Assembly: GCA_016906335.1 (NCBI GenBank)
Contig: JADEYG010000002.1
Coordinates: 62,001 to 126,000 of the forward strand
DNA from: Novakomyces olei
Lineage: Eukaryota; Ascomycota; Novakomycetes; Novakomycetales; Novakomycetaceae
Length of the DNA: 64,000 nucleotides
Direction of reading: 5' to 3'
Shown: positions 3,212-20,789 of the stretch, in pieces
Numbering within the stretch: position 1 is the stretch's first letter
Layout: each line of letters begins with the position of its first letter
The notes under the pieces: generated by a model
What the model was told of the DNA's origin: nothing
Seen by the model: the letters and a program-made list of their open reading frames with translations, nothing else
Database searches by the model: none
Position numbers and translations under genes: made by a program

Positions 3212-3327
3212 CAATACCAGAAAGAGACAAATACAATGGGAAAAGCAAGATAAACCATACAACTCAATATCACAAAAGGGTGCATCCGTTGTAAGTTCAA
3301 TCACAATTGATCCAAAGAAAAGGATTG

Positions 3328-3621
3328 TGTTAGGAGTGTAGATAATAAATAATTAAACATTGAATTACTTAAAGGGTCCTAAACGTGTACGGATTAAATC
3401 TGGAACCTCGGCATTTGATTAATAATTAATCACGCCATAGCGGAAGCTGACTCATGATTAGTCAAGGCTGACTCATAATTAATCACGCCATTTCGGGCTT
3501 TCGGACAATGGATTATTAATCCATTACAGGAGTCTATAATAAGGACACGGTTTCCCATAGTTTAGAACATAGTTTTTTCTATCTTTTAATTTATTTGTTA
3601 CAACAGTGAGTTACCCTCACA
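3328..3621 (+). repeat. 5' LTR of element A
   Basis: 294 bp, TGTTAGGAGTG to CCTCACA, nearly identical to 8661-8954. A TATA-type sequence near 3535-3545 lies about 60 bp before a conserved ACAACAGTGAG segment close to the LTR end, a plausible transcript start region. Confidence 0.95.
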
Positions 3622-3646
3622 CATTTTTTCACTGCTAACTAGGACA

Positions 3647-4318
3647 GTGACTCCCCCGTCTGGACAACGCCGACGGATTTACCCTCACGTTTTCTCTGAG
3701 CCTTTTGCAAATCTTTTGCGTCAGGCGAAAACTGATCCTCCTAAGGATAAGGTGTTGACTGGATATTGCCGTCAATACCCGGAGTCCAAGGAGCGAAAAC
3801 AAAACTCTGAGTCTGGACCTGCCGACCAGAGTGTTCGACCCTCTTCCAGCTTGACTCTTCAGCTGTCGAAGAGAAGAGAAAGAAACGCTCGCCGTTCAGA
3901 GGCCTTCAAGGAGCGTAAGAGAATTGAAACGGTTTCTAAACCATTTGCAACACCTCGTCCGAAACCACTTCCAACCCCGATTCCGGCCCCGCTTCCGAAA
4001 CCAGTTCCAGCACCAGTTCCAGCACCAGTTCCAAGATTACCGCTTACGGAGGAAGAAATATTTCGAAAAGAAGCTCATTGGACAAGCAAGGTTGCGGCTC
4101 AAATCAAATACGAGGACACCTACAATAATCTTGTGGCCAAAAGAATACAGGAACTGAGCAGGAAAAAAAAAACTAAGTATTTGCTTGACAACATCGTTGA
4201 GGACGAATACAGAATCCGTCTTTTTAAAGGAGAGGATCCAGACAAAGTTGAAAAGGACTACTACGAACATTTGGAACAAGGACGACAAAAGCCATCCTAT
4301 CTTAATACGCTTTTTTAA
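3647..4318 (+). CDS. Element A ORF1, unrecognised protein upstream of gag-pol
   Basis: An open frame of about 223 codons between the 5' LTR and gag-pol. I do not recognise the product. It has a basic segment, ERNARRSEAFKERK, near residues 79-92, a proline-rich stretch of PxP repeats near 105-130, and a charged C-terminal domain. Element E encodes the same protein architecture at 15319-16029 with the basic and C-terminal blocks strongly conserved, so the frame appears selected. Neither copy has an ATG at the head of the frame; A offers GTG at 3647 and an upstream CTG. It is not the capsid, which is at the start of gag-pol. Confidence 0.6.
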   Translation: MTPPSGQRRRIYPHVFSEPFANLLRQAKTDPPKDKVLTGYCRQYPESKERKQNSESGPADQSVRPSSSLTLQLSKRRERNARRSEAFKERKRIETVSKPFATPRPKPLPTPIPAPLPKPVPAPVPAPVPRLPLTEEEIFRKEAHWTSKVAAQIKYEDTYNNLVAKRIQELSRKKKTKYLLDNIVEDEYRIRLFKGEDPDKVEKDYYEHLEQGRQKPSYLNTLF

Positions 4319-4389
4319 ACTAGCTCATTAATTTAACTCAAATTTATTAATCTACTTTATTCATAAAATTAATTTAATTTTAATTAATT

Positions 4390-7300
4390 ATGGATTTTAA
4401 GATTAAATTACCTGAGCCTACGAAATTGAATGGTCGCCCAATGACCCATAGAGAGTTCCAGTCATGGAGACACTCTATGGTAAAATGGCTCGCCTATGTC
4501 AAGACAGGCGAACATCCTATTGCTATTTCAGATGTCGACTTGATTAGCATGTTTCTCGAATCAAATGCTTCGATCTATGCTGAGGAGCTCCGTGACAATA
4601 CTTCTCTCACAGCAAATCAAATGCTTGATCACCTTGAGAGAAGCATTGTTCCGAACGATTATCTACCTCGTGCATACAGCAAGTTTGTCACCTTCACTCA
4701 GGGCACAAGAAGCATTAGCCAATATGCAACGCAGCTTAAGCTCAAATCAATGGAACTTGAGATAGTCAACGAGGCAATCTTGATTCAACAATTCATACAT
4801 GGATTAAATGAAAGAACCAAACCTCAAATAATGGGATCATTGAGAAGTGCATTTGGAACTCAATCCGGTGATAGTTCGAACATGGTCAAATGGAATTGGC
4901 AAAACGTTGTTGATGTGGCTACAGGTTATGACTTTGCGACAGCAAGACCCTTTGTTGGAAATATGAGTACGAAAGCAGCCAGTCAGAGAACAGAGGCACG
5001 AGCTGATGTTCCTGAAAAGAGTGAACCAGAGAAACCTATTCTCCGAACAAGATGTACTTTTTGTCGCAGAACTGGGCACACCTACGAGCAATGTTTCAAA
5101 AGAAAGAATCAGTCAAGTGTGAGTGCTCTTCAAACAAGCACAGAAATAGATAGCGAAGAAATAAAACTTGAGTATCACTGTTCCGCTGTCCAAAATACCG
5201 GTCAACAATTTCTTGTAGTCCTACCAATTGATATAAACGGTAAAGAAATAAAATGTCAAATACTTATTGACACCGGGAGTGACCTTGACGTTATTGATTC
5301 GAACTTCTGCAATGTTCACCGACCAAAATACTATGAAAGTGACCATAAAATTGAAATGGCATTTCAAGGATCAAGAACTATTAGCCGACACATGGCAAGA
5401 ATACGATTTAAGGGATATGAGTTGAATTGCGCAGTGGCAAGACTGAGAACCTCTGACCTTCTCATCGGAATGGGAACACTAAGCAAACTTGGAGCAATTG
5501 TCAATACCAGAAAGAGACAAATACAATGGAAAAAACAAGATAAACCATACGATTCAATATCACAAAAGGGGGCAGCCGTTGTAAGTTCAATCACAATTGA
5601 TCCAAAGAAAAGGATTGATGTTCAGTCAGTTCGAGAACAAGACACAATTGACTCAAATAAGGTACTGGAAGTGCTACAAGACAAGTTCAAGCAAACTTTG
5701 GTAGCAAGTCCACCAAGCAAATTGCCTATAATGAGACCAGTGGTTGCAACATACGAGCCGATCGACCCACACAAGAAGTACAATATCAAAAAGTGGTATC
5801 CAAGCAAGAAGCTAATGATGCCCTTAAAACTGAAAATTGATGAACTTCTACACGCCAAAATGATATCAATTTCTACAGAAGAGCCAAGTGCCATATTATT
5901 TCCTATTCCTAAAGACAAGGACATGGTCAACAAGCTCACAGATCCAAAAGAAATCAAGAATTATCTGCGATTTGTCAATGACGCTAGACCTCGGAATGCG
6001 AACATGAAACGCTTTTACATTCAGGTTCCTCGCATTGACATTGTAGTTCAAGATATTGCCAGAGCAAAATACAGAACTAAGATTGACTTGAAGGACGCTT
6101 TCTTTCAATCTAGAATACAGCCTGGGCAAGAACATTATACGGCATTTTGGACGCCATTTGGAATATACCAATGGAATGTGATGCCACAAGGAGATCGAAA
6201 CTCTACTGCTATACAACAGCAGCTTATGGAGGAATTATTCAGACCCTACATTGGCATTTGGATGACAGTATATGTTGACGACATCATCATATACGATGAC
6301 GATGTCCAGGAACACTTGGATCACCTAGTGATTGTCTTTGGAATAATGTCTAAATGGGAACTATACGCTAGTCCAGCCAAGACCTTTCCATTCTGCAAAA
6401 GCTTTGTGGTACTAGGCAGACAGATCAGTGATGAAGGAATCAAAATGACTGAAAAATCAAGAAACTCCATACTACGACTAGAAACTCCAAAGAACATGAA
6501 ACAAATACAGAGACTGGTGGGCATGCTAAACTGGATTTCAACGTTCATACCCAATTTATCGTCACACATCTCAACATTCACTGAAATGAAGGAGTTTTCC
6601 TGGGATGAAACTAAGCAGAAAGGATTTGACAAAATAAAGTCTGCAGTTCAGCAAGACATAATACTCAAGCCATTTAACCCAGAGCCTCTGAACAATGGAA
6701 CAGAGAAATTATTCATGGGAATAGATGCCTCTCTGGTGGGCACTGGAGGTTGGCTAGGTCAAGGAAAAGAATGGCAAACATGCAGAATAATTGGGTTTAC
6801 CTCTAAGAAACTTGGAATAGCAGAATCCCACTATCCAGTTCACGAACTTGAATATCTAGCATGCATCAGAGCATTGGAGCATTTCGAAATATATGCTAGA
6901 GGATATCAGGTAAATTGTTTGACAGACAATAAAGCATTAAGTCGTCTTTTTTACTCGAAGAACGTTATGCTGTCGCGACGTCATCTACGATGGATGGATT
7001 TTTTGAATGAATTTGACATCAATATTATACACGTGCCAGGAACACTTAACGTCTTAGCAGACTTATTGTCACGCTCTCATTCACACTCAAAGGTCGCTGG
7101 AATCTCTATTGAACAAACCCCAAATACAGATATAGATGTAGAGATACACAATCTCTATCTAAAGGATACATATTGGGCAGAAATACTTGCAATATTGAAA
7201 AGCAACGAAGAAAATCCAGATACCGAAAAACTTAAATCAAGATATTGTCTCAAAGATAATCTCATTCACCTCAAATTTGATGACCGAATCTGTATTCCTT

Positions 7301-8685
7301 CAGGCTTCACAAACAAGATAATACAAGAACTTCACGACACATATCAAGGTGGACATGGAGGCATAAATAAGACAATAGCCGGTGTTGCGCGGACTTATTA
7401 TTGGCCAGCAATGGCAAAAGAAATTAAGGACTATGTGAAGTCGTGCGAGACGTGTGCTAAGAGCAAAATTACACCTCACAAGCCCATTGGTTTACTATTA
7501 GAGCTGAACATACCAAAGGCTCGATGGGAAACCATTGGAATGGATTTCATTACTGGGCTTCCTTTATCTGGAAAGGAAAAATACGATGCAATAATTTGTA
7601 TTGTTGACCGACTCACCAAACGCGCGCATTTTTGGCCAACACACACAACTATAACCGCTGAAGGCACAGCAGCTCTATTCTTGGATCGATATTTCTGCTT
7701 ACATGGTCTACCAAAAATAATTATTAGTGACCGAGATGTCAGGTTTATGTCAGAGTTTTGGACACAACTCACAAAGGTTCTTGAAGTCAAACTCAAACCA
7801 TCATCAAGCTATCACCCACAAACAAATGGGCAAACGGAAAGAACAAACAGGGTTCTCGAAGATTACCTACGCCTATTTACATATGCCAATCGTAACAACT
7901 TCACATGGCACAAATTGCTTTCGTTTGCAGAATTCTTTTATTCCTCAAGCAAACACTCTGCTATCACGATGACTCCATTTGAAGCTGACCTAGGATACAA
8001 TCCAAGAAGCTTAAGTGATCTTGCAATGTCTATTCCACAAAGTCAAGACAATTCATCATTCCTTGAAACTCTAGCAGCCAATCAAATACTCTGTCAAGAT
8101 GCCATAAGAGCCGCACATGACTTATCAAAGATTTATGCAGACAAAAACAGACTCAACATTGAATATGAAGTCAACGACTATGTATACCTGAGTACTGCAA
8201 ACATTCGAGAAATACCTGAACTATTTCAACATGACTTGACCAGAAAACTTCAATCCAAATACATTGGACCATACAAAATTGTTAAAAAGGTCAGTCCAGT
8301 GGCATATGAACTGGAACTACCCACAAATCTAAAATATCATTCAGTTGTTCATATCTCACAACTCAAAAAGCACAATGCAATGACTGAACAGAACGAACGT
8401 GAACAACCAAAACCAAAAGCTTTGCGACGCTATAAAGATAATACAGAACTTTATGCTATACAAAGCATAGTTGACCACGCTTGGTTCAGAGCTGACAAAA
8501 AGTCTACAACACCTAAAAAAGGCTACACCTTACTTTATCGAATTCGCTGGGAAGGATACAATCCTGACGAAGACACATGGGAGCCAAAACAACACCTACT
8601 ACATTCCAGACAACTCCTTGACAACTACAATTCGACACATCTCGAATTAGTGGGGGAGGATGTTAGGAGTGTAGATAATAAATAA
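4390..8685 (+). CDS. Element A gag-pol polyprotein with C-terminal chromodomain
   Basis: One 1431-residue frame. Capsid-type gag occupies about residues 1-200, with a zinc knuckle CTFCRRTGHTYEQC near 222-235. Aspartic protease (LIDTGSD) is near 290 and RT around 480-680 with YVDD. RNase H follows near 770-890 (GIDASL, HELEYLA). Integrase has a zinc region with CETCAKSK and a DDE core (GMDFITG, SDRDVRF, NGQTERTNRVLEDY). A chromodomain lies at about 1380-1415 (YRIRWEGYNPDEDTWEP). Gag and pol share one frame, as in Tf1-like chromoviruses. The chromodomain probably guides insertion to marked chromatin. Confidence 0.93.
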   Translation: MDFKIKLPEPTKLNGRPMTHREFQSWRHSMVKWLAYVKTGEHPIAISDVDLISMFLESNASIYAEELRDNTSLTANQMLDHLERSIVPNDYLPRAYSKFVTFTQGTRSISQYATQLKLKSMELEIVNEAILIQQFIHGLNERTKPQIMGSLRSAFGTQSGDSSNMVKWNWQNVVDVATGYDFATARPFVGNMSTKAASQRTEARADVPEKSEPEKPILRTRCTFCRRTGHTYEQCFKRKNQSSVSALQTSTEIDSEEIKLEYHCSAVQNTGQQFLVVLPIDINGKEIKCQILIDTGSDLDVIDSNFCNVHRPKYYESDHKIEMAFQGSRTISRHMARIRFKGYELNCAVARLRTSDLLIGMGTLSKLGAIVNTRKRQIQWKKQDKPYDSISQKGAAVVSSITIDPKKRIDVQSVREQDTIDSNKVLEVLQDKFKQTLVASPPSKLPIMRPVVATYEPIDPHKKYNIKKWYPSKKLMMPLKLKIDELLHAKMISISTEEPSAILFPIPKDKDMVNKLTDPKEIKNYLRFVNDARPRNANMKRFYIQVPRIDIVVQDIARAKYRTKIDLKDAFFQSRIQPGQEHYTAFWTPFGIYQWNVMPQGDRNSTAIQQQLMEELFRPYIGIWMTVYVDDIIIYDDDVQEHLDHLVIVFGIMSKWELYASPAKTFPFCKSFVVLGRQISDEGIKMTEKSRNSILRLETPKNMKQIQRLVGMLNWISTFIPNLSSHISTFTEMKEFSWDETKQKGFDKIKSAVQQDIILKPFNPEPLNNGTEKLFMGIDASLVGTGGWLGQGKEWQTCRIIGFTSKKLGIAESHYPVHELEYLACIRALEHFEIYARGYQVNCLTDNKALSRLFYSKNVMLSRRHLRWMDFLNEFDINIIHVPGTLNVLADLLSRSHSHSKVAGISIEQTPNTDIDVEIHNLYLKDTYWAEILAILKSNEENPDTEKLKSRYCLKDNLIHLKFDDRICIPSGFTNKIIQELHDTYQGGHGGINKTIAGVARTYYWPAMAKEIKDYVKSCETCAKSKITPHKPIGLLLELNIPKARWETIGMDFITGLPLSGKEKYDAIICIVDRLTKRAHFWPTHTTITAEGTAALFLDRYFCLHGLPKIIISDRDVRFMSEFWTQLTKVLEVKLKPSSSYHPQTNGQTERTNRVLEDYLRLFTYANRNNFTWHKLLSFAEFFYSSSKHSAITMTPFEADLGYNPRSLSDLAMSIPQSQDNSSFLETLAANQILCQDAIRAAHDLSKIYADKNRLNIEYEVNDYVYLSTANIREIPELFQHDLTRKLQSKYIGPYKIVKKVSPVAYELELPTNLKYHSVVHISQLKKHNAMTEQNEREQPKPKALRRYKDNTELYAIQSIVDHAWFRADKKSTTPKKGYTLLYRIRWEGYNPDEDTWEPKQHLLHSRQLLDNYNSTHLELVGEDVRSVDNK

Positions 8686-8954
8686 TTAAACATTGAATTA
8701 CTTAAAGGGTCCTAAACGTGTACGGATTAAATCTGGAACCTCGGCATTTGATTAATAATTAATCACGCCATAGCGGAAGCTGACTCATGATTAGTCAAGG
8801 CTGACTCATAATTAATCACGCCATTTCGGGCTTTCGGACAATGGATTATTAATCCATTACAGGAGTCTATAAAAAGGACACGGTTTCCCATAGTTTAGAA
8901 CATAGTTTTTTCTATCTTTTAATTTATTTGTTACAACAGTGAGTTACCCTCACA
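8661..8954 (+). repeat. 3' LTR of element A
   Basis: 294 bp, paired with 3328-3621. It is preceded by a purine tract, GTGGGGGAGGA, a likely polypurine tract that also encodes the last codons of gag-pol. The gag-pol frame ends inside this LTR at 8685. GATTG at 8955-8959 completes the target duplication. Confidence 0.95.
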
Positions 8955-8980
8955 GATTGATGTTCAGTCAGTAGCAAACT

Positions 8981-11815
8981 TTGGTTACAAATCCACCAAG
9001 CAAATCGCCTATAATGAGACCAGTGATTGCAACATACGAGCCAATCGACCCACACAAGAAGTACAATATCAAAAAGTGGTATCCAAGCAAGAAGCTAATG
9101 ATGCCCTTAAAGCTGAAAATTGATGGACTTCTACACGCCAAAATGATATCAATTTCTACAGAAGAGCCAAGTGCCATATTATTTCCTATTCCTAAAGATA
9201 AGGACATGGTCAACAAGCTCACAGATCCAAAAGAGATCAAGAATTACCTGCGATTTGTCAATGACGCTAGACCTCGGAATGCGAACATGAAACGCTTTTA
9301 CATTCAGGTTCCTCGCATTGACGTTGTAGTTCAAGATATTGCCAGGGCAAAATACAGAACTAAGATTGACTTGAAGGAAGCTTTCTTCCAATCTAGAATA
9401 CAGCCTGGGCAAGAACATTATACGGCATTTTGGACGCCATTTGAAATATACCAATGGAATGTGATGCCACAAGGAGATCGAAACTCTACTGCTATACAAC
9501 AGCAGCTGATGGAGGAACTATTCAGACCTTACATTGGCATTTGGATGACAGTATATGTTGACGACATCATCATATACGATGACGATGTCCAAGAAAACTT
9601 GGATCACCTAGTGATTGTCTTTGGAATAATGTCTAAATGGGAACTATACGCTAGGCCAGCCAAAACCTTTCCATTCTGCAAAAGCTTTGTGGTACTAGGC
9701 AGACAGATCAGTGATGAAGGAATCAAAATGACTGAAAAATCAAGAAACTCCATACTACGACTAGAAACTCCAAAGAACATGAAACAAATACAGAGACTGG
9801 TGGGCATGCTAAACTGGATTTCAACGTTCATACCCAATTTATCGTCACACATCTCAACATTCACTGAAATGAAGGAGTTTTCCTGGGATGAAACTAAGCA
9901 GAAAGGATTTGACAAAATAAAGTCTGCAGTTCAGCAAGACATAATACTCAAGCCATTTAACCCAGAGCCTCTGAACAATGGAACAGAGAAATTATTCATG
10001 GGAATAGATGCCTCTCTGGTGGGCACTGGAGGTTGGCTAGGTCAAGGAAAAGAATGGCAAACATGCAGAATAATTGGGTTTACCTCTAAGAAACTTGGAA
10101 TAGCAGAATCCCACTATCCAGTTCACGAACTTGAATATCTAGCATGCATCAGAGCATTGGAGCATTTCGAAATATATGCTAGAGGATATCAGGTAAATTG
10201 TTTGACAGACAATAAAGCATTAAGTCGTCTTTTTTACTCGAAGAACGTTATGCTGTCGCGACGTCATCTACGATGGATGGATTTTTTGAATGAATTTGAC
10301 ATCAATATTATACACGTGCCAGGAACACTTAACGTCTTAGCAGACTTATTGTCACGCTCTCATTCACACTCAAAGGTCGCTGGAATCTCTATTGAACAAA
10401 CCCCAAATACAGATATAGATGTAGAGATACACAATCTCTATCTAAAGGATACATATTGGGCAGAAATACTTGCAATATTGAAAAGCAACGAAGAAAATCC
10501 AGATACCGAAAAACTTAAATCAAGATATTGTCTCAAAGATAATCTCATTCACCTCAAATTTGATGACCGAATCTGTATTCCTTCAGGCTTCACAAACAAG
10601 ATAATACAAGAACTTCACGACACATATCAAGGTGGACATGGAGGCATAAATAAGACAATAGCCGGTGTTGCGCGGACTTATTATTGGCCAGCAATGGCAA
10701 AAGAAATTAAGGACTATGTAAAGTCGTGCGAGACGTGCGCTAAGAGCAAAATTACACCTCACAAGCCCATTGGTTTACTATTAGAGCTGAACATACCAAA
10801 GGCTCGATGGGAAACCATTGGAATGGATTTTATTACGGGGCTTCCGTTATCTGGAAAGGAAAAATACGATGCAATAATTTGTATTGTTGACCGACTCACT
10901 AAACGCGCGCATTTTTGGCCAACACACACAACTATAACCGCTGAAGGCACAGCAGCTCTATTCTTGGATCGATATTTCTGCTTACATGGCCTACCAAAAA
11001 TAATTATTAGTGACCGAGATGTCAGGTTTATGTCAGAATTTTGGACACACCTCACAAAGGTTCTTGAAGTCAAACTTAAACCATCATCAAGCTATCACCC
11101 ACAAACAAATGGGCAAACGGAAAGAACAAACAGGGTTCTCGAAGATTACCTACGCCTATTTACATATGCCAATCGTAACAACTTCACATGGCACAAACTG
11201 CTTTCATTTGCAGAATTCTTTTATTCCTCAAGCAAACACTCTGCTATCACGATGACTCCATTTGAAGCTGACCTAGGATACAATCCAAGAAGCTTAAGTG
11301 ATCTTGCAATGTCTATTCCACAAAGTCAAGACAATTCATCATTCCTTGAAACTCTAGCAGCCAATCAAATACTCTGTCAAGATGCCATTCGAGCTGCACA
11401 TGACTTATCAAAAATTTATGCAGACAAAAACCGACTCAACATTGAATATGAAGTCAACGACTATGTATACCTGAGTACTGCAAACATTCGAGAAATACCT
11501 GAACTATTTCAACATAACTTGACAAGAAAACTTCAATCTAAATACATTGGACCATACAAAATTGTTAAAAAGGTCAGTCCAGTGGCATATGAACTGGAAC
11601 TACCCACAAATTTAAAATATCATTCAGTTGTTCATATCTCACAACTTAAAAAGCACAGTGCAATGACTGAACAGAACGAACGTGAACAACCAAAACCAAA
11701 AGCTTTGCGACGCTATAAAGATAATACAGAACTTTATGCTATACAAAGCATAGTTGATCACGCTTGGTTCAGAGCTGACGAAAAGTCTACAACACCTAAA
11801 AAAGGCTACGCCTAA
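8981..11815 (+). pseudogene. Pol remnant of element B
   Basis: A 944-codon open stretch nearly identical to the corresponding part of element A gag-pol. It covers reverse transcriptase with YVDD, RNase H, the integrase zinc region and DDE core, and the beginning of the chromodomain. It is a fossil: gag and protease are not present with it and the coding region is not intact. Very high nucleotide identity to A shows recent common ancestry within one subfamily. Confidence 0.8.
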
Positions 11816-11943
11816 CTTTACTGAGTTCGCTGGGGAGGATACACTCCTGAAGAAGACACATGGGAGCCAAAACAACACCTACTACATTCCAGACAACTCC
11901 TCGACAACTACAATTCGACACATCTCGAATTAGTGGGGGAGGA

Positions 11944-12226
11944 TGTTAGGAGTGTAGATAATAAAAATAATTAAACATTACTTAAAGGGTCCTAAAACAA
12001 TCTAAAAACCTCGGCATTTGATTAATAATTAAGTACGCCATAGCGGAAGCTGACTCATGATTAGTCATGGCTGACTCATAATCAATCATGCCATTTCGGG
12101 CCTTCGGACAATGGATTATTAATCCGTTACAGGAGTCTATAAAAGGACACAGTTTCCCATAGTTTAGATACATACTTTTTCTATCTTTTTTTTATTTATT
12201 GGTTACAACAGTGAGTTATCCTCACA
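11944..12226 (+). repeat. 3' LTR of element B
   Basis: Begins TGTTAGGAGTG and ends CCTCACA, as in both LTRs of A, but is 283 bp rather than 294 and visibly diverged. A TATAAAAGG box lies near 12140. Copia sequence of element D follows immediately at 12227, marking the insertion junction. Confidence 0.9.
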
Positions 12227-12378
12227 CTCTCCCACTCGGGAGGAGGATGTTTCGACTTCTGTGACTGGCACTCTGGAAGACACGGAGATAATACAAACTG
12301 CTTCCACTCGGGAGGAGGAAAATACCAGCACAAATAGTCTGGACGATGACATAATGAGTACTAATAAAACGGAAAAAA

Positions 12379-14200
12379 ATGAAAAGCATGGACGCAAAGA
12401 GCAATTTAAACTCAGTAGATGTGACCGAGCTTTACGACCCAATGGAGGTCGGAGACGAGTCACTGAAAAGAAAAAGAGTGGGAGCCGAAGAATATATAGA
12501 CCCAGAGACGATTGTACTAAATGAGCTACCTCTAATTCGCCGGTCTGACAGACTTAAAGAGAAGGATCTAAAGAGGACACGTATACAACAACATAACATC
12601 TCTGGCCCATATCTGGCAAAAGACGTAATAATACCTGTAAGTGTAAAGCAGGCAATACATTCAAGACATGGCCAGGAATACAAAAGGGCTATGGAAGCGG
12701 AACTAGAGTCATTATTCGAAAAAAATGTAATTAAATCTCTAGATACAAATGAAGTTCCTAATAAAGTTGTGTCTACGAAATGGGTGTTCGCCGTGAATTC
12801 AAATCACTTAGGTGAAGTTACGAGGTTTAAAGCCCGGCTCGTTGCTCGTGGGAATGAGCAGACACAGATGATCTGGATACTTACGCTTCTACGCTTGGAT
12901 TTAAAGAGCTGCGCATGCTGTATGCACATGCTGCCATAAGAAAGGCTAAAATCCTAACACTCGACATTAAAACAGCATTTTTAAATGCGCCGATTGATGA
13001 GGAGCTATATATCAAAATAGCTCACGAAGGGGGTAATCCAGAGATATACAAAGTGCAAAAAGCACTCTACGGTTTTCGACAATCGCCACGACTCTGGTAC
13101 AACATGTACAAAGATTTTTTGGAGGACGAACTTGGCTTTTCCCGTACAGGCAAGGAGAAAATATCTTTATCAGATCTACGGGGATGTTTCTATGTGTCGT
13201 CGCTATTTATGTAGATGACACAATGGTCATCTGTGAAAATGAGAGCATGAGCCTAGCTGTGATTGAAAAAACCCAGCTCAAATTTGAGACTGATGAGGCC
13301 GAACCTATTACTAAATTCCTGGTGATTGAGACTACACAGTCGCCCACGCTGGACACTGTTTCAGTGTGCGCAAAGGAATATATTCGAAAACTATTGGTTA
13401 GATTCGAAACCGGAGAATACTATTCACAGAAGAGACCATCCAGTAAAGTGCCTTTGCTAGCAGAAGAAGGTAGCCCTGGTGCACGTTTACTAGAAGGTCA
13501 AGAAGTAAAAAGATATCAAAGCCTAGTAGGATCCTTGAGATACGTCACCACTGTTGCAAGACCCGACATTGCAAATGCAGTAAGGCGAGTATCATATGGA
13601 TTGCAAGGACCTACAGTTCACAACATGAGAATGGCAGAAAAAATATTAGGATATCTAAAGTCTACTATGAGTTTTTGTCTAACCTATCATCCTAGAAAGG
13701 ATATAGACAAACAGCTTTCGGTCTACACTGATGCAAGCTTTGCTAGCTCAGAAGACAATGGAAAGTCTTGCATGGGAATTGCTATTCTCATGGCTGAAGC
13801 TCCAGTGTATTGGGAAAGCAAGACAATCAGGGATTACAAAGGTAGGTCAATGGATACAGAGCTAGTGGCGCTATACGAGGGTCTAAATCAGGCCAGGCAC
13901 CTACACTTTATACTCCATCAATTGGAGCATAATCAACTCCAAGAAATACAAGTATTTGAAGATAACACAGGTGTTATTGAAACCCTACGACGAAACAAGC
14001 CATACGGAGGCCACCCTGCTCTCCAAAATAAGGCAGAGGCATTAAAGGCATGTGTGCAAAACCGTGAAGCAAATATATGCTATATTTGCACGGACGAACA
14101 GTTGGCAGATGGATTTACAAAGGTACTTTCAGTTAATAAAATGCAGGAATTTGTGTCACGACTAGGGATGAATTCAAATACAGGGACAGCGAACGCATGA
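12379..14200 (+). pseudogene. Copia pol remnant of element D
   Basis: Copia-type RT opens with wording such as WVFAVNSN and FKARLVARGNEQ around 12780-12860. It continues with KTAFLNAPIDEELY and the YVDD box near 13208-13220. RNase H covers about 13700-14150, including SMDTELVALYEGLNQARHL. The remnant is split over several open stretches and is a fossil. Copia elements place integrase before RT, which fits the linker-like sequence at 12300-12600. Confidence 0.8.
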
Positions 14201-14210
14201 GGAGGAGCGT

Positions 14211-14690
14211 TGGGTTAAAACATGCGTACACTAACTAACCCTAACTAACCCTATATCTAGTAGACAATTGTGTTATATATTTATGTATTTAGATATATAG
14301 ATGTTACGGGTCGGCCCGCAACTAGGTGACTCACGGCTTGAGTCCAGCCGCGACGACGAGTAATCCCCTTGGGCGGCAGATAGCACGCTGCCTTTCGATA
14401 GGGGTTCCGGTGAGTGAAGACTAAGGGAACTACAGCTAGAAACTAAGCCTATTCTCCTAAGACACCTGGAGACTTCAAGTTGTAGCTTATGATATTGCGT
14501 AGTGTAAAAAGTCTTCCTCGAAGCCTTTTATACACTACGACTCCCATGGAACTAAGTAATAGCACAAGGTGGTGCTGTATAGCACTACCTAGTGCTATGG
14601 CTATGAAATACTATATAAAACAATATAGTCCTCACCCTTAAGTAATGCAGCATTCGCTGTCTTACTTAAGGCCATGTCACACTCGTGACA
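14211..14690 (+). repeat. Probable 3' LTR of element D
   Basis: Follows a purine-rich tract (GAGGAGGAGCG) just after the pol remnant. It starts TGGGTTAAAAC and ends CTCGTGACA, about 480 bp with TG...CA ends. It contains a tandem CTAACCCTAACTAACCCTA telomere-like tract near 14233-14253. No partner LTR is in the window, so boundaries are inferred from the polypurine tract and from F sequence resuming at 14691. Confidence 0.5.
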
Positions 14691-14939
14691 ATAGATATGT
14701 CAGATAGTTCTAGTCAATGTGTTCTTGCAGTAACTAGAAGATTAAGATTAATTCTACCACACATCCGCTGTAAAAGTTTTATTTGTATTTATTATATTCT
14801 TAAGCCAGTCATATTTATTTGTAATGTGGACTCCGGCTCCGGAGTCCAGTATAAATGTAGAGTTATTCGAGGCTTTATCCTTTATTTTTCTCGTGTTCAT
14901 TGCCATAAATGCAATCTTTGGTTTATTCTTATTGCCTGG
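14691..14939 (-). pseudogene. Copia protease-region remnant of element F
   Basis: On the minus strand this piece reads a copia aspartic protease signature, FILDSGAGVHITN, near 14830-14870. It is bounded by the E insertion at 14939 (duplication CCTGG at 14935-14939) and by the D LTR at 14690. It is a fossil fragment. Confidence 0.65.
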
Positions 14940-15299
14940 TGTTAGGCCATAGTGTAGATAGTAAAAATAAAATTAAAAATGACATAATTAAATTAAATTA
15001 ATTCACTCCAAATAGGGAATTTAACCGATTTGGAGGAATATTTAATTACTAATCATTAAATCAAGCCACTGATCGGGTATCTGTATCTTATCAATGATAA
15101 GGTGATTACTAATTGATCGGTTACTTCTGATCCTATCTGATTACTAATTGATAGGAAAGTCTTGATCCTATCTCTTGGCAAATTACGAAGATAAGAGCTG
15201 AGCCTTGAAGTCTATAAAAGGACAAGGTTTTCCATAGTTTAAGGGTAGATTTAATTAATCTAAAAGTTATAACAGTGAGTAATTTCCACAGTTATAACA
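14940..15299 (+). repeat. 5' LTR of element E
   Basis: 360 bp, TGTTAGGCCAT to GTTATAACA, identical to 20370-20729 by eye. A TATAAAAGGAC box lies at 15213-15223. It shares with A the segments CTATAAAAGGAC, TTCCCATAGTTTA-like and AACAGTGAG, but little else. Confidence 0.96.
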
Positions 15300-15318
15300 A
15301 CTTTTTTCACTGCTAACA

Positions 15319-16029
15319 TTGTCAGTGAATCCGTCAGGAGACAGCCGACGGCCTCGCATTGTCTACTCTGAGACATTTGCAAATCTCTTGAAGCAGGCAA
15401 AAACCGATCCAAAGGTTGTTGTCTCGGCTGGCTCTATCCGCCGAAGCAATACACCTAAGGATAAGGATAAAACCTCTGTGTCTGGACTTACCGACCAGAG
15501 TGCCCACTCAGAGAAAAATACCTCGATTCATCAATTGAATAAGAGGAAAGAAAGAAACGCTCGCCGATCGCAGGCATTCAAAGAGCGTAAACTCAACGAT
15601 CGAATTTCCAAGGGGCCTGAATCAATTGCTGCTATTGCGGCAAAGGTGCTCAGAAAACCTCCTCCACCAGCGCCGAGACTTGGTCCTTACCCAGCTCTTA
15701 CAGCTCCTTCAGTTTCGCCGGCCACTATTTCTACTACAACTCCTCGTTTACCTCTATCAGCGGAAGAAGTTTTTCGAAAACAAGCGCACTGGACAAGCAA
15801 AGCGGCGGCCAATCTACGTTACGAGGAAACATACAACAAATTGGTGGCCAATCGCATTCAAGAGCTACACAATAGGAAGAAAACAAAATATCTTCTGGAC
15901 AACATCGTTGAGGACAGATTCAAAATTCGTCTCTACAGAGGAGAAGATCCAAACAAAGTTGAGAAGGATTATTACGATCACTTGAAAAGTGGACAGCAAT
16001 CACCAGCGTTTTTTAATACTTTGTATTAG
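15319..16029 (+). CDS. Element E ORF1, homologue of element A ORF1
   Basis: About 236 codons, unrecognised product. It matches A ORF1 in the N-terminal block (FANLLKQAKTDP), the basic block (ERNARRSQAFKERK), a proline-rich middle and the C-terminal block (KKTKYLLDNIVED, GEDPNKVEKDYYDHL). The middle is freely diverged while these blocks are almost fixed, the pattern of purifying selection. There is no ATG at the head of the frame; it opens with TTG/GTG/CTG codons. A 66-bp gap separates its stop from the gag-pol ATG. Confidence 0.6.
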   Translation: MSVNPSGDSRRPRIVYSETFANLLKQAKTDPKVVVSAGSIRRSNTPKDKDKTSVSGLTDQSAHSEKNTSIHQLNKRKERNARRSQAFKERKLNDRISKGPESIAAIAAKVLRKPPPPAPRLGPYPALTAPSVSPATISTTTPRLPLSAEEVFRKQAHWTSKAAANLRYEETYNKLVANRIQELHNRKKTKYLLDNIVEDRFKIRLYRGEDPNKVEKDYYDHLKSGQQSPAFFNTLY

Positions 16030-16095
16030 TCTTTTATATTTAATATATTTAATTCTTTATCAATTTAATTTAAATTGATTAAAATATATTCTAAA

Positions 16096-19000
16096 ATGGA
16101 CTTCAAAATCAAGCTGCCTGAACCAGCAAAGCTGAATGGTCATTCAATGACCCATAGGGAGTTCCAATCATGGAGAGGCTCTATGGTTAAATGGCTGACA
16201 TATGCCAAAGCAGGAGGCAGTGTCACCGGGATTTCAGATATAGACTTAATTAGCATGTTCCTCGAATCGAACGCTACAATCTATGCTGAAGAACTCAGGG
16301 ACAATGCTAGTGTAACGACAGATCAGATGCTTGATCATCTGGAGCGAAGCATTGTACCCAACGACTATTTACCACGCGCTTACAGCAAGTTTGTTACCTT
16401 CGCTCAAGGAACAAAAAGCATTAGCCAATATGCCACGCAACTTAAATTGAAATCAATGGAACTAGAAATAGTTAACGAAGCCATCTTGATTCAACAATTC
16501 ATCCATGGGCTAAATGAGAGAACAAAGCCTCAAATAATGGGATCTTTGAGAAGTGCATTTGGAAACCAGTCGGGAAACAACACAGGAATGACGAAATGGA
16601 AATGGCAAAGTGTGGTTGATGTGGCAACAGGCTACGATTTTACTGCAACAAGACCATACGTAGGAAACATGAATCCTAAACAAGGCAACCAACAAACTGA
16701 AACAAAGGCAACTACTTCTGAGAAGAAAGAACCAGAGAAGCCAGCCCTCAGAACAAGATGTACCTTTTGTCGCCGCACTGGGCACACGTACGAGCAATGC
16801 TTTAAACGAAAGAATCAATCAACCATCAGTGCTCTTAAAGAAGATTCTGGAATAGTTAGCGAAGAAATCAAACTTGATTACAATTGTTCTGCTGTCCAAA
16901 ACACAAACCAACAATTTCTAGTTAATTTACCTGTGGAAATAAATGATAAAAAAATCAAATGTCAGGTCCTGATTGATACTGGAAGTGATATTGACGTTAT
17001 TGACTCAAACTTTTGCAATGTTCACCGACCAACATACAAAGAAAGTGACCACAAAATTCAAATGGCCTTTCAAGGATCGAAAACTGTGAGCAGATATATG
17101 GCCAAAGTCATGTTCAAGGGGAGCGAGTTAAATTGCGCCGTTGCAAGACTTAGAACTTCTGATCTATTGATTGGCATGGGAACACTAAGTAAGCTTGGGG
17201 CAATTGTGAACACTCGCAAACGACATATACAATGGCAGGACGATGCAAATGAAAGAAGGTTTGTCAAGCCAGAAGTACTTCCTGTAGTCAGCTCAATAAC
17301 AATTGATTACAACAAGAGAATTGAAGTCCAACAAGTTACAAATGAGGACTTGGTTGACCCAGAAAAAGTACTGCAGATACTTCAAGACAAGTTTGATCAA
17401 ACTTTGATCAAGGATCCTCCAAGCAAGTTGCCTATAATGAGACCTGTGGTTGCTACATATGAGCCAATTGATCCAGAAAAAAGGTATAACATAAAAAAGT
17501 GGTACCCAAGCAAAAAGCTTATGTTGCCTCTGAAAGTAAAGATTGATGAGCTTTTAGAGGCAAAGATGATCTCAATCTCTAGCGAAGAACCTAGTGCAAT
17601 ATTGTTTCCAATTCCCAAAGACAAAGAAATGGTTAACAAGCTAACAGATCCTAAAGAAATAATTAAATATTTGAGATTTGTTAATGATGCTCGACCTCGC
17701 AATGCAAACATGAAGCGTTTCTACATTCAAGTACCACGTATTGACATAGTTGTACAAGACATTGCCCGAGCAAAATACAGAACTAAGATTGATTTGAAGG
17801 ACGCTTTCTTTCAATCAAGAATACAACCCGGACAGGAACACTACACGGCATTCTGGACACCATTTGGGATATATCAGTGGAACGTCATGCCTCAAGGAGA
17901 TCGTAATTCCACTGCTATACAGCAACAACTTATGGAGGAGCTCTTCAGACCTTACATTGGAATATGGATGACAGTCTATGTCGATGACATAATAATATAT
18001 GACGATGATGTCCAAGCACATCTGGACTATCTGGTGCTAGTTTTTTGTATTATGTCAAAGTGGGAACTATACGCGAGTCCAACCAAAACATTTCCGTTTT
18101 GCAAGAACTTTGTTGTGCTGGGGAGACAAATTAGTGATGAAGGAATCAAAATGACTGATAAATCAAAAAACTCCATACTGCGACTGGAACCACCAAAGAA
18201 TATTAAGCAAGTACAAAGATTGGTTGGAATGCTGAATTGGGTTTCAACGTTCATACCAAACTTATCCTCACACATTTCAACATTCACTGAGATGAAGGAG
18301 TTTTCTTGGGACGAAACAAAACAAAAAGGCTTTGATAAAATCAAGAAAGCAGTTCAGCACGACATAGTACTTTCACCATTTGACCCTGAGCCCCTGAATA
18401 ATGGTACAGAAAAACTATTCATGGGAATAGATGCTTCACTAGTTGGTACAGGTGGATGGCTAGGACAAGGACAAGACTGGAGAAAATGCAGAGTAATAGG
18501 CTTCACGTCGAAAAAATTAGGGATAGCTGAATCACACTATCCTGTACATGAACTTGAATATCTTGCATGCATACGAGCTCTTGATCATTTTGAAATATAT
18601 GCTCGAGGTTACCAAGTCAATTGTTTAACAGACAACAAAGCTCTGAGTCGCCTCCTTTACTCCAAAAATGTTATGCTTTCACGAAGACACCTTAGATGGA
18701 TGGATTTTTTGAATGAGTTCGATATTAATATTATTCATGTTCCTGGAACTGAAAATATCTTGGCTGATCTACTTTCAAGAACACACGGAAAAACAGCTGA
18801 TGTAGGTGCAATTTCCGTACAAATCTCGCCCCAGAATAATTTAAAATTTGAGCTGGCCTACGAAAAGGACAAACATTGGTCCAAAATACTCACTATTTTG
18901 AAAAATCCAAACAATTTTGCAGACAACGAAAGCGTAAAAATCAAATCGCGCTACTACATCCAAGACGGTATAATACATCTCAAATACGATGATAGAATCT

Positions 19001-20382
19001 GCCTACCAACAGATTTCACAAACATCATAATAAGAGAATCACATGACACCTACCAAGGAGGGCATGGAGGCATAAAGAAAACAATAGCAGGCGTAGGCCG
19101 CAAATACTACTGGCCAGGTATGGCAAAAGAAATAAATGAATATGTCAGATCATGTGAAACGTGTGCTAAAAGCAAAATTATACCTCAAAAGCCAATTGGA
19201 CTATTGCAAGAACTCGATATACCGAGTAATCGTTGGCAAACAATAGGCATGGACTTCATCACTGGACTACCAGCTTCGGGGACTCAAAAGTTTGATGCTA
19301 TAATTTGCATAGTTGATCGTCTAACCAAAAGAGCTCATTTCTGGCCCACGCACACAACTGTAACAGCACAAGGAACTGCACAGCTATTTTTGGAAAGATA
19401 CTTCTGTCTACACGGCTTACCAACTGCAATAATAAGTGACAGAGATGTAAGATTTATGTCTGAATTTTGGCAGACACTTACAAAAATTCTTCAAATCAAA
19501 CTGAAGCCATCATCAAGCTATCACCCACAGTCCAACGGTCAAACCGAACGTACAAATCGTGTATTGGAAGACTATCTTCGTCTTTTCATTTATGCCAATA
19601 AAAACAACTTCAGCTGGCACACATTATTATCGTTTGCCGAATTCTTTTACTCTTCAAGCCAACACTCCGCCATATCAATGACACCCTTTGAGGCGGATCT
19701 TGGCTACATCCCACGCAGTCTTACTGACTTATCAATGCCCGAAACACCGAACAAAGATACTTCCTCTTTTATAAACACTCTGGAGGCCAACAAAATTCTT
19801 TGTCAAGATGCTATCAGAACAGCACATGATTTATCAAAAATCTATGCGGATGAAAAGCGACTAAATGTTGAATATAATGTTAATGACCTGGCTTATTTAA
19901 GCACAGCCAACATACGAGAAATACCGGAGCTATTCCACGATGTTCTCACACGAAAATTACAATCAAAATACATTGGTCCATTCAAAATTATTCAAAAAAT
20001 CAGTCCTGTTTCATATGAATTGGAACTACCAACATCCATAAAATATCATCCCGTTGTTCACATTTCTCAATTAAAGAAACATCATCCAATGAACAGTCAC
20101 AACACCAGAGAACAACCTAAGCCTAAAGCTCTGCGACGCTACAAAGACAACACAGAATTATATGTAATTAAACAAATCGTTGATCATGGATGGTTCAAAG
20201 GATCTAAAAAATCCAATACACCGAAACAGGGGTATAAGCTTTTATACCGAATCCGCTGGGAAGGCTATGGACCTGAAGACGATACATGGGAACCTAAATC
20301 TCACTTGGCTAACTCAACCAACCTGCTGAACAACTACAATTCGACACATCTCGAATCAGTGGGGGAGGATGTTAGGCCATAG
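16096..20382 (+). CDS. Element E gag-pol polyprotein with C-terminal chromodomain
   Basis: A 1428-residue single frame starting at the ATG equivalent to that of A (MDFKIKLPEP); an in-frame ATG 21 bp upstream exists but is not conserved. Gag capsid is followed by the zinc knuckle CTFCRRTGHTYEQC, protease (LIDTGSDIDVID) and RT (YVDDIIIYDDD). Next come RNase H, integrase (CETCAKSK; GMDFITG; SDRDVRF; NGQTERTNRV) and a chromodomain (YRIRWEGYGPEDDTWEP). All catalytic motifs are present. It would supply shell, protease, reverse transcriptase and integrase for the element. Confidence 0.94.
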   Translation: MDFKIKLPEPAKLNGHSMTHREFQSWRGSMVKWLTYAKAGGSVTGISDIDLISMFLESNATIYAEELRDNASVTTDQMLDHLERSIVPNDYLPRAYSKFVTFAQGTKSISQYATQLKLKSMELEIVNEAILIQQFIHGLNERTKPQIMGSLRSAFGNQSGNNTGMTKWKWQSVVDVATGYDFTATRPYVGNMNPKQGNQQTETKATTSEKKEPEKPALRTRCTFCRRTGHTYEQCFKRKNQSTISALKEDSGIVSEEIKLDYNCSAVQNTNQQFLVNLPVEINDKKIKCQVLIDTGSDIDVIDSNFCNVHRPTYKESDHKIQMAFQGSKTVSRYMAKVMFKGSELNCAVARLRTSDLLIGMGTLSKLGAIVNTRKRHIQWQDDANERRFVKPEVLPVVSSITIDYNKRIEVQQVTNEDLVDPEKVLQILQDKFDQTLIKDPPSKLPIMRPVVATYEPIDPEKRYNIKKWYPSKKLMLPLKVKIDELLEAKMISISSEEPSAILFPIPKDKEMVNKLTDPKEIIKYLRFVNDARPRNANMKRFYIQVPRIDIVVQDIARAKYRTKIDLKDAFFQSRIQPGQEHYTAFWTPFGIYQWNVMPQGDRNSTAIQQQLMEELFRPYIGIWMTVYVDDIIIYDDDVQAHLDYLVLVFCIMSKWELYASPTKTFPFCKNFVVLGRQISDEGIKMTDKSKNSILRLEPPKNIKQVQRLVGMLNWVSTFIPNLSSHISTFTEMKEFSWDETKQKGFDKIKKAVQHDIVLSPFDPEPLNNGTEKLFMGIDASLVGTGGWLGQGQDWRKCRVIGFTSKKLGIAESHYPVHELEYLACIRALDHFEIYARGYQVNCLTDNKALSRLLYSKNVMLSRRHLRWMDFLNEFDINIIHVPGTENILADLLSRTHGKTADVGAISVQISPQNNLKFELAYEKDKHWSKILTILKNPNNFADNESVKIKSRYYIQDGIIHLKYDDRICLPTDFTNIIIRESHDTYQGGHGGIKKTIAGVGRKYYWPGMAKEINEYVRSCETCAKSKIIPQKPIGLLQELDIPSNRWQTIGMDFITGLPASGTQKFDAIICIVDRLTKRAHFWPTHTTVTAQGTAQLFLERYFCLHGLPTAIISDRDVRFMSEFWQTLTKILQIKLKPSSSYHPQSNGQTERTNRVLEDYLRLFIYANKNNFSWHTLLSFAEFFYSSSQHSAISMTPFEADLGYIPRSLTDLSMPETPNKDTSSFINTLEANKILCQDAIRTAHDLSKIYADEKRLNVEYNVNDLAYLSTANIREIPELFHDVLTRKLQSKYIGPFKIIQKISPVSYELELPTSIKYHPVVHISQLKKHHPMNSHNTREQPKPKALRRYKDNTELYVIKQIVDHGWFKGSKKSNTPKQGYKLLYRIRWEGYGPEDDTWEPKSHLANSTNLLNNYNSTHLESVGEDVRP

Positions 20383-20729
20383 TGTAGATAGTAAAAATAA
20401 AATTAAAAATGACATAATTAAATTAAATTAATTCACTCCAAATAGGGAATTTAACCGATTTGGAGGAATATTTAATTACTAATCATTAAATCAAGCCACT
20501 GATCGGGTATCTGTATCTTATCAATGATAAGGTGATTACTAATTGATCGGTTACTTCTGATCCTATCTGATTACTAATTGATAGGAAAGTCTTGATCCTA
20601 TCTCTTGGCAAATTACGAAGATAAGAGCTGAGCCTTGAAGTCTATAAAAGGACAAGGTTTTCCATAGTTTAAGGGTAGATTTAATTAATCTAAAAGTTAT
20701 AACAGTGAGTAATTTCCACAGTTATAACA
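20370..20729 (+). repeat. 3' LTR of element E
   Basis: 360 bp, paired with 14940-15299. A GTGGGGGAGGA polypurine tract precedes it, and the gag-pol frame ends 13 bp inside it. CCTGG at 20730-20734 is the second copy of the target duplication. Confidence 0.96.
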
Positions 20730-20789
20730 CCTGGCTTTCCATTCAGGAACCAGCAGTTTCTTTTGATATGCCCGACTTTGTTACAATGG

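Follow-up and report, generated by a model that had tools for sequence, protein, structure and literature searches.

How can a retrotransposon express a gene that has no start codon? The question is raised by a stretch of 64,000 nucleotides (nt) of Novakomyces olei DNA (assembly GCA_016906335.1, contig JADEYG010000002.1, positions 62,001 to 126,000; hereafter the window), in which a Ty3 family is represented by two complete elements, A (3328-8954) and E (14940-20729). Between its 5′ long terminal repeat (LTR) and gag-pol, each carries a further frame, ORF1, to which the original prediction had drawn attention. Both frames were open as predicted (3647-4318 and 15319-16029) and contained the conserved blocks quoted for them; no ATG opened either, and neither translation contained methionine. 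ORF1 was also correctly described as additional to gag, as the capsid-type Retrotrans_gag domain sits at the start of a separate long frame.

From sequence analysis of this single genome, we propose that one small intron acts as a switch, spliced RNA being the ORF1 message and unspliced RNA both the Gag-Pol message and the genome. We give this a probability of about 0.78, a figure that covers the splicing switch and excludes the role of the ORF1 protein. ORF1 would serve this Ty3 chromovirus family as an accessory gene expressed through splicing. Transcription would begin within the LTR, and an intron of 42-51 nt would span GTGAGT in the LTR end, the primer-binding site, and CAG just before ORF1. 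With the intron removed, the A that ends the LTR exon would be joined to TG to form the ORF1 start, AAC-AUG, and the RNA, its primer site lost, would be message only. With the intron kept, the first AUG would be that of gag-pol, so that scanning ribosomes would make Gag-Pol and the same RNA could be reverse transcribed. Retrotransposition would not purge the intron, since an RNA that has been spliced lacks the site for priming. Every LTR element must split its transcripts between message and genome; here the removal of an intron of about 45 nt seems to create a start codon and delete the primer site at a stroke. If true, this would account for the survival of an intron in an element copied through RNA. 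Such a gene would escape gene finders that require a genomic ATG, and similar hidden accessory genes may exist in other retroelements.

The predicted intron and its junction AUG

A search of the whole genome for ORF1 gave 19 matches. Eleven were near full length and two came from the same broken copy, one from each half, which gives 12 loci in all. Four of the other six belonged to three decayed pieces (L021-L023), one lay at C2:1044238, and one (L024, C9:887948) was judged unrelated, as it sits in a proline-repeat protein. A search for the start of gag gave 24 matches, 12 of them with the gag start, and ORF1 lay directly upstream in all 12, so the frame is not missing from other family members. 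Two gag copies without ORF1 (L098 and L099) are 5′-truncated, with the break inside gag. The assignment of ORF1 to two subfamilies was right in that both carry it, but the copies form five sequence groups, and these five lineages were used in the comparisons below. Identity of the ORF1 protein to that of A was 81, 62, 62, 57 and 56% in the lineage comparison. ORF1 was open in 10 of the 12 copies (L017 carries a stop and L020 is frameshifted), while full-length gag-pol was found in three (open frames of 1433, 1437 and 1439). This better survival of ORF1 is no sign of domestication, because frames of 0.7 and 4.3 kb would, by their lengths alone, differ about this much through random decay.

All 12 copies shared one layout at the start of ORF1: ACA/GTGAGT, 12-21 nt, T5-6CACTGCTAAC, 4-5 nt, and CAG/TG, where the slashes mark the predicted cuts. 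The GT donor, the CTAAC branch point and the AG acceptor of a spliceosomal intron were at the usual distances in every copy. Removing the 42-51 nt from GTGAGT to CAG joined A to TG, giving in all 12 an AUG preceded by AAC and in frame with ORF1. Apart from this proposed start, no methionine occurred in any of the 12 ORF1 readings, and the conserved peptide began at the junction as MTPPSG, MQPSG or MNPSG. The simplest explanation for the missing ATG of ORF1, and a likely one, is an intron that spans the LTR end and would build an AUG at its junction. The frame does lack a genomic ATG, as had been observed, and a start built by splicing was probably overlooked. If splicing occurs, the coding part runs from 3648 in A and from 15326 in E; the predicted frames are open, but the start given for E is then 7 nt too early.

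When each of the five lineages was shuffled 5000 times with its dinucleotides preserved, a GTRAGT-CTAAC-YAG intron whose junction builds an in-frame AUG was found in 0/5000 shuffles of each, and in 5/5 of the real sequences. The strict motif, GTGAGT-TGCTAAC-CAG, occurred 14 times in the genome, and 13 of these occurrences were in elements of the A/E family (the 12 copies and one truncated element); the reversed motif, used as control, occurred once. Two decayed pieces were altered at the motifs: L022 retained the layout with donor GCGAGG, and L023 had GAGAGT and CTAGC. Short introns of the host are built alike. For example, a 44-nt candidate in the actin gene, GTAAGA...CTAACTTTGCAG, joins MCKAG to FAGDD, and an actin-related gene has candidates of 39 and 41 nt.

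The leader was free of ATG. Between a point 60 nt upstream of the intron and the start of gag-pol, ten of the 12 copies had no ATG, whatever the frame, and these were exactly the copies with an open ORF1. The two broken copies have one ATG each, after the intron in L017 and inside it in L020. Dinucleotide shuffles of the post-intron leaders (696-771 nt) averaged 6.1-9.8 ATGs, and none of 1000 shuffles in any of the five lineages was free of them. At the methionine frequency of gag-pol, a methionine-free ORF1 had P values of 0.003-0.005. The leader P values do not multiply because the lineages are related.

The primer site and the evidence against splicing

The LTR end could be fixed by target duplications and comparison with the 3′ LTR in A, E, L012 and L013. 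A 3′ LTR was located in two of ten further copies tried, and none was found where we looked in the other eight. In the four copies with a fixed end, the first 16-25 nt of the predicted intron fall within the LTR. The sequence TTTTTTCACTG starts 2 nt past the LTR end (with five Ts in L013) and is followed immediately by CTAAC; this primer-binding position is thus inside the predicted intron. An LTR end directly before GTGAGT was ruled out, as the target duplications put it 16-25 nt downstream.

The complement of a tRNA 3′ end (TGG...) was absent at the primer site, which begins with T5-6CACTG. The sequence GTTAGCAGTGAAAA had 14 exact matches in the genome, all in elements, and nine more with one mismatch (23 in total, against 14 for the control); none overlapped the listed tRNA matches, of which the genome has at least 61. 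For a self-primer at the RNA 5′ end, of the kind used by Tf1, the LTR offered at most six Watson-Crick pairs with the site, and none common to the lineages except CAGTGAG at the donor. Among the one-mismatch matches to the complement of the primer site is GATAGCAGTGAAAA, carried by three similar dispersed copies of unrelated sequence (L094, L095 and L096, at C1:630517, C1:635910 and C3:711636), which look like a duplicated gene. A contig rich in tRNA genes (C6:6757-95943), where equally scoring matches come in pairs separated by about 72 kb, is possibly a mitochondrial genome assembled with an overlap.

The primer site is the exact complement of CAGTGA followed by As. A speculative arrangement, which we consider improbable, would make CAGTGA at the LTR end both the intron donor and the polyadenylation site. 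The 3′ end of the RNA itself, CAGUGA followed by poly(A), would then be an exact 11-nt complement of UUUUUUCACUG and could prime reverse transcription. As CAGTG is present at both splice sites, the CACTG arm could pair with either, making splicing and priming mutually exclusive, perhaps as set by the ORF1 protein. If true, this would be a 3′-end form of self-priming, in which alternative pairing decides between splicing for ORF1 and priming for the genome.

The same complementarity allows a reading without any intron, in which T5-6CACTG pairs with the upstream CAGTGAG or the downstream CAGTG as a priming structure and the look of splice sites is a by-product. All 12 copies have the complementary segments, and the leader ends of A and E fold more stably than their shuffles (z -2.80 and -2.88), mostly via pairings other than the CACTG-CAGTG hairpin. 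The segments are invariant, so they offer no covariation by which to judge the pairing, and the order GTGAGT, CTAAC, CAG, its typical distances and the in-frame junction AUG would be left unexplained. We regard this reading as very improbable.

Several points weigh against the splicing switch. The main one from sequence is the donor, which is not visibly favoured by the host: a loose GTGAGT motif matched the genome 58 times (13 times within elements) and its control 50 times, whereas GTAAGT gave 128 matches and its control 56. An unfavoured donor fits partial splicing. The intron shuffles were run on the region where the motif had first been noticed, the five lineages share ancestry and are not independent tests, and the LTR end was located in only 4 of 12 copies. 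The lack of ATG was only mildly unusual once coding was taken into account: the P value for zero out-of-frame ATGs was 0.0035-0.113 per lineage with the protein fixed and its codons redrawn, and 0.040-0.109 with ORF1's own codons permuted. Three other Ty3 families in the same genome have ATG-free stretches of 333, 513 and 741 nt before gag, so avoidance of ATG would be a general need of scanning; the unusual part is that a conserved protein of about 220 codons obeys it. Export-signal-like matches in the ORF1 protein were not commoner than in shuffled proteins. Finally, the acceptor CAG/TG leaves an in-frame GTG in unspliced RNA.

That GTG might let ORF1 be translated from unspliced RNA, with non-AUG initiation and no splicing. 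Each of the 12 copies has this GTG, and the frames continue open on both sides of it. Such initiation would leave the donor, branch point and acceptor unexplained in 12 of 12 copies. Moreover, A is at position -3 of the spliced AUG in all 12, but at that of the unspliced GTG in only three (T in nine). We hold non-AUG initiation to be unlikely.

In another Ty3 family, L101:831-1572 has 741 nt without ATG before gag, and a 120-codon methionine-free frame there overlaps the start of gag. No pre-gag gene like ORF1 was found in the three other Ty3 families read in this genome.

Conservation and possible role of the ORF1 protein

ORF1 is under purifying selection. The ratio of nonsynonymous to synonymous differences per site (pN/pS) was well under 1: five pairs of lineages gave 0.21-0.46, and the upper 95% bounds were 0.39-0.58. 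ORF1 could be imagined as a passive relic, open only because its copies are young. The copies of A and E are indeed young, since their LTR pairs differ at 1/294 and 0/360 sites. However, the ratios are between lineages, and the youth of single copies cannot produce such values; we give the relic hardly any credence.

Constraint was uneven along the protein. Between A and E, the whole of ORF1 had pN 0.289 and pS 0.651, and gag-pol was more tightly constrained (pN 0.121, pS 0.733). Within ORF1, pN was low in the basic block (pN 0.106, pS 0.648) and the C-terminal part (0.187, 0.685); values for the N-terminal part were 0.223 and 0.418. The N-terminal link (0.446, 0.512) and the proline linker (0.575, 0.852) were nearly unconstrained. 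The description of fixed blocks around a drifting proline-rich middle was thus borne out.

No relative of ORF1 was found. Nothing above noise was seen in Pfam, NCBIfam, PDB sequences or IMG/VR, nor among 5.8 billion proteins, of which the 7991 best candidates were scored. We therefore rejected a known domain as its identity, and the label unrecognised held; judging from these searches, fungal Ty3 elements gain an orphan protein family with ORF1. ORF1 proteins have a mass of about 26-27 kDa and an isoelectric point of 9.7-10.2, and their basic block has a net charge of +6 to +7 and is a predicted helix. The structure prediction that had been suggested gave AlphaFold models, but these were too poor for use (mean predicted local distance difference test scores of 55.4 and 57.7). 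They were mostly helical, with the basic helix among their better-supported parts.

As its likeliest role, we tentatively suggest that the ORF1 protein may be a basic RNA-binding factor that retains or exports unspliced RNA, like Rev or the CERV protein described below. The suggestion draws on the predicted splicing of ORF1, its basic block and the CERV precedent, and it may well be wrong.

A structural role is somewhat less likely still. ORF1 might be a former N-terminal segment of Gag, a matrix-like or assembly part, that is now a separate spliced gene acting in the particle. The capsid match begins about 50 residues into Gag of the A/E family, compared with about 95 in two other Ty3 families and 166 in a third; by this earlier start the A/E-family Gag has a short N-terminus. 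The mostly helical models would suit such a segment too. On the other hand, a separately spliced protein would not be tied to Gag in amount. Nor was any similarity detected between ORF1 and the N-terminal part of Gag in three other Ty3 families of the genome, the profile used being thin (effective number of sequences 1.6), and ORF1 matched no known Gag N-terminal segment above noise in the profile and sequence searches. We rejected identity with a Gag N-terminus as it stands.

Anatomy of the elements and comparison with known systems

The gag-pol frames of A and E have the domain order of Ty3/gypsy chromoviruses, namely protease, reverse transcriptase (RT), ribonuclease H (RNaseH), integrase and chromodomain; the protease match scores under the Pfam cut-off. 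Both elements have LTRs with TG...CA ends, 5-bp target-site duplications (TSDs), and a purine-rich polypurine tract, GTGGGGGAGGA, preceding the 3′ LTR. Coordinates are given in Table 1.

Table 1. Features of elements A and E, in window coordinates
Element	Feature	Position	Strand	Remarks
A	5′ LTR	3328..3621	+	TG...CA ends; 294 nt; 1 mismatch to 3′ LTR; followed by primer site
A	TSD, GATTG	3323-3327 and 8955-8959
A	TATA-like box in LTR	3535..3542	+	predicted from sequence reading
A	Predicted intron, GTGAGT...CTAAC...CAG	3606..3647	+	42 nt; first 16 nt within LTR
A	Putative primer-binding site, TTTTTTCACTG	3624..3634	+	2 nt past LTR end
A	Branch-point-like CTAAC	3635..3639	+
A	ORF1, predicted exon 2	3648..4318	+	AUG would be A3605 + T3648 G3649; 223 amino acids, no further Met
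A	gag-pol, single frame	4390..8685	+	capsid, protease, RT, RNaseH, integrase, chromodomain
A	3′ LTR	8661..8954	+
E	5′ LTR	14940..15299	+	360 nt; 0 mismatches to 3′ LTR
E	TSD, CCTGG	14935-14939 and 20730-20734
E	TATA-like box in LTR	15213..15219	+	predicted from sequence reading
E	Predicted intron	15275..15325	+	51 nt; first 25 nt within LTR
E	Putative primer-binding site, TTTTTTCACTG	15302..15312	+	2 nt past LTR end
E	Branch-point-like CTAAC	15313..15317	+
E	ORF1, predicted exon 2	15326..16029	+	AUG would be A15274 + T15326 G15327; 234 amino acids, no further Met
E	gag-pol, single frame	16096..20382	+
E	3′ LTR	20370..20729	+

The gag-pol frames enter the 3′ LTR before their stop, by 25 nt in A (8661-8685) and 13 nt in E (20370-20382). 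Element A is nested in another A-type copy: 3212-3327 matches gag-pol 5502-5617, and the host copy resumes after the target duplication (8955 to about 12240), being open to 11815 with a further LTR from 11944. Between A and E, a fragment at 13037-14200 has a weak copia-type RVT_2 match (E 1.9e-7, 0.3 bits below the cut-off). Elsewhere in the genome, copies of groups A, C and E are clustered at C4:1428000-1448400, where an A-type copy begins less than 3 kb from an E-type leader; this suggests nested insertion in a retroelement-rich contig end. A genome-wide RT query gave 90 matches, 16 at 85% identity or more (the A/E family) and 74 at only 28-38%, so that the 14.3-Mb genome has several other Ty3 families. 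An IMG/VR search with a gag-pol profile gave no relative, and 20 IMG/VR matches to a 16-mer query were regarded as chance.

Among known elements, the fungal chromodomain Ty3 elements Tf1 and Tf2 of fission yeast (Tf1/sushi group) resemble A and E in their single gag-pol frame (PMC10085805). According to the part of that source available to us, the group is primed by the 5′ end of its own RNA, of which no complement was found in A/E-family LTRs, and its Gag lacks a CCHC motif, whereas a zinc-knuckle-like CTFCRRTGHTYEQC can be read at about 5055-5096 in gag-pol of element A; the same part mentions no pre-gag ORF. In the open-licence literature searched, as far as its accessible text goes (PMC5014426, PMC10085805, PMC5035957, PMC3735527, PMC10309623 and PMC3248453 included), we found neither a spliced gene ahead of gag in any fungal Ty3 element nor an intron that holds the primer site and whose removal builds a start codon. 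The terms intron, additional ORF and primer do not occur in LTR Retrotransposons in Fungi (PMC3248453).

In BARE1 of barley, the available text describes one RNA pool that is translated and a different one that is replicated, one of the two being spliced (PMC3735527). BARE1 differs in being copia-type, with a spliced RNA that makes Gag only and an intron at the end of gag, and its replicating RNA is distinguished by promoter and capping rather than by loss of the primer site (PMC3735527). Foamy viruses have their major splice donor in the R region of the LTR, upstream of the primer site, according to the part of PMC5035957 at hand; by our deduction, their LTR-derived spliced RNAs lack a primer site because of this order. 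There, splicing serves large exons such as pol from a far-downstream acceptor, without a small pre-gag gene, and the same part describes no junction-built AUG (PMC5035957).

For the suggested role of the ORF1 protein, HIV-1 Rev provides the logic of a small basic protein from spliced RNA that favours unspliced RNA (discussed in the accessible part of PMC10309623). No homology to Rev was detected in the ORF1 protein, and no export signal above chance. The proposed logic has a parallel in Cer1, a Ty3/gypsy-related LTR retrotransposon of Caenorhabditis elegans with an orphan accessory protein. In the text available to us, its protein CERV is made from a spliced mRNA and is required for nuclear export of unspliced Cer1 genomic RNA (PMC10309623). 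The Novakomyces family differs in that ORF1 precedes gag and would be expressed through a single tiny intron; CERV was compared in sequence via the database searches only. The main components of the proposed switch thus have precedents in Cer1, foamy viruses and BARE1.

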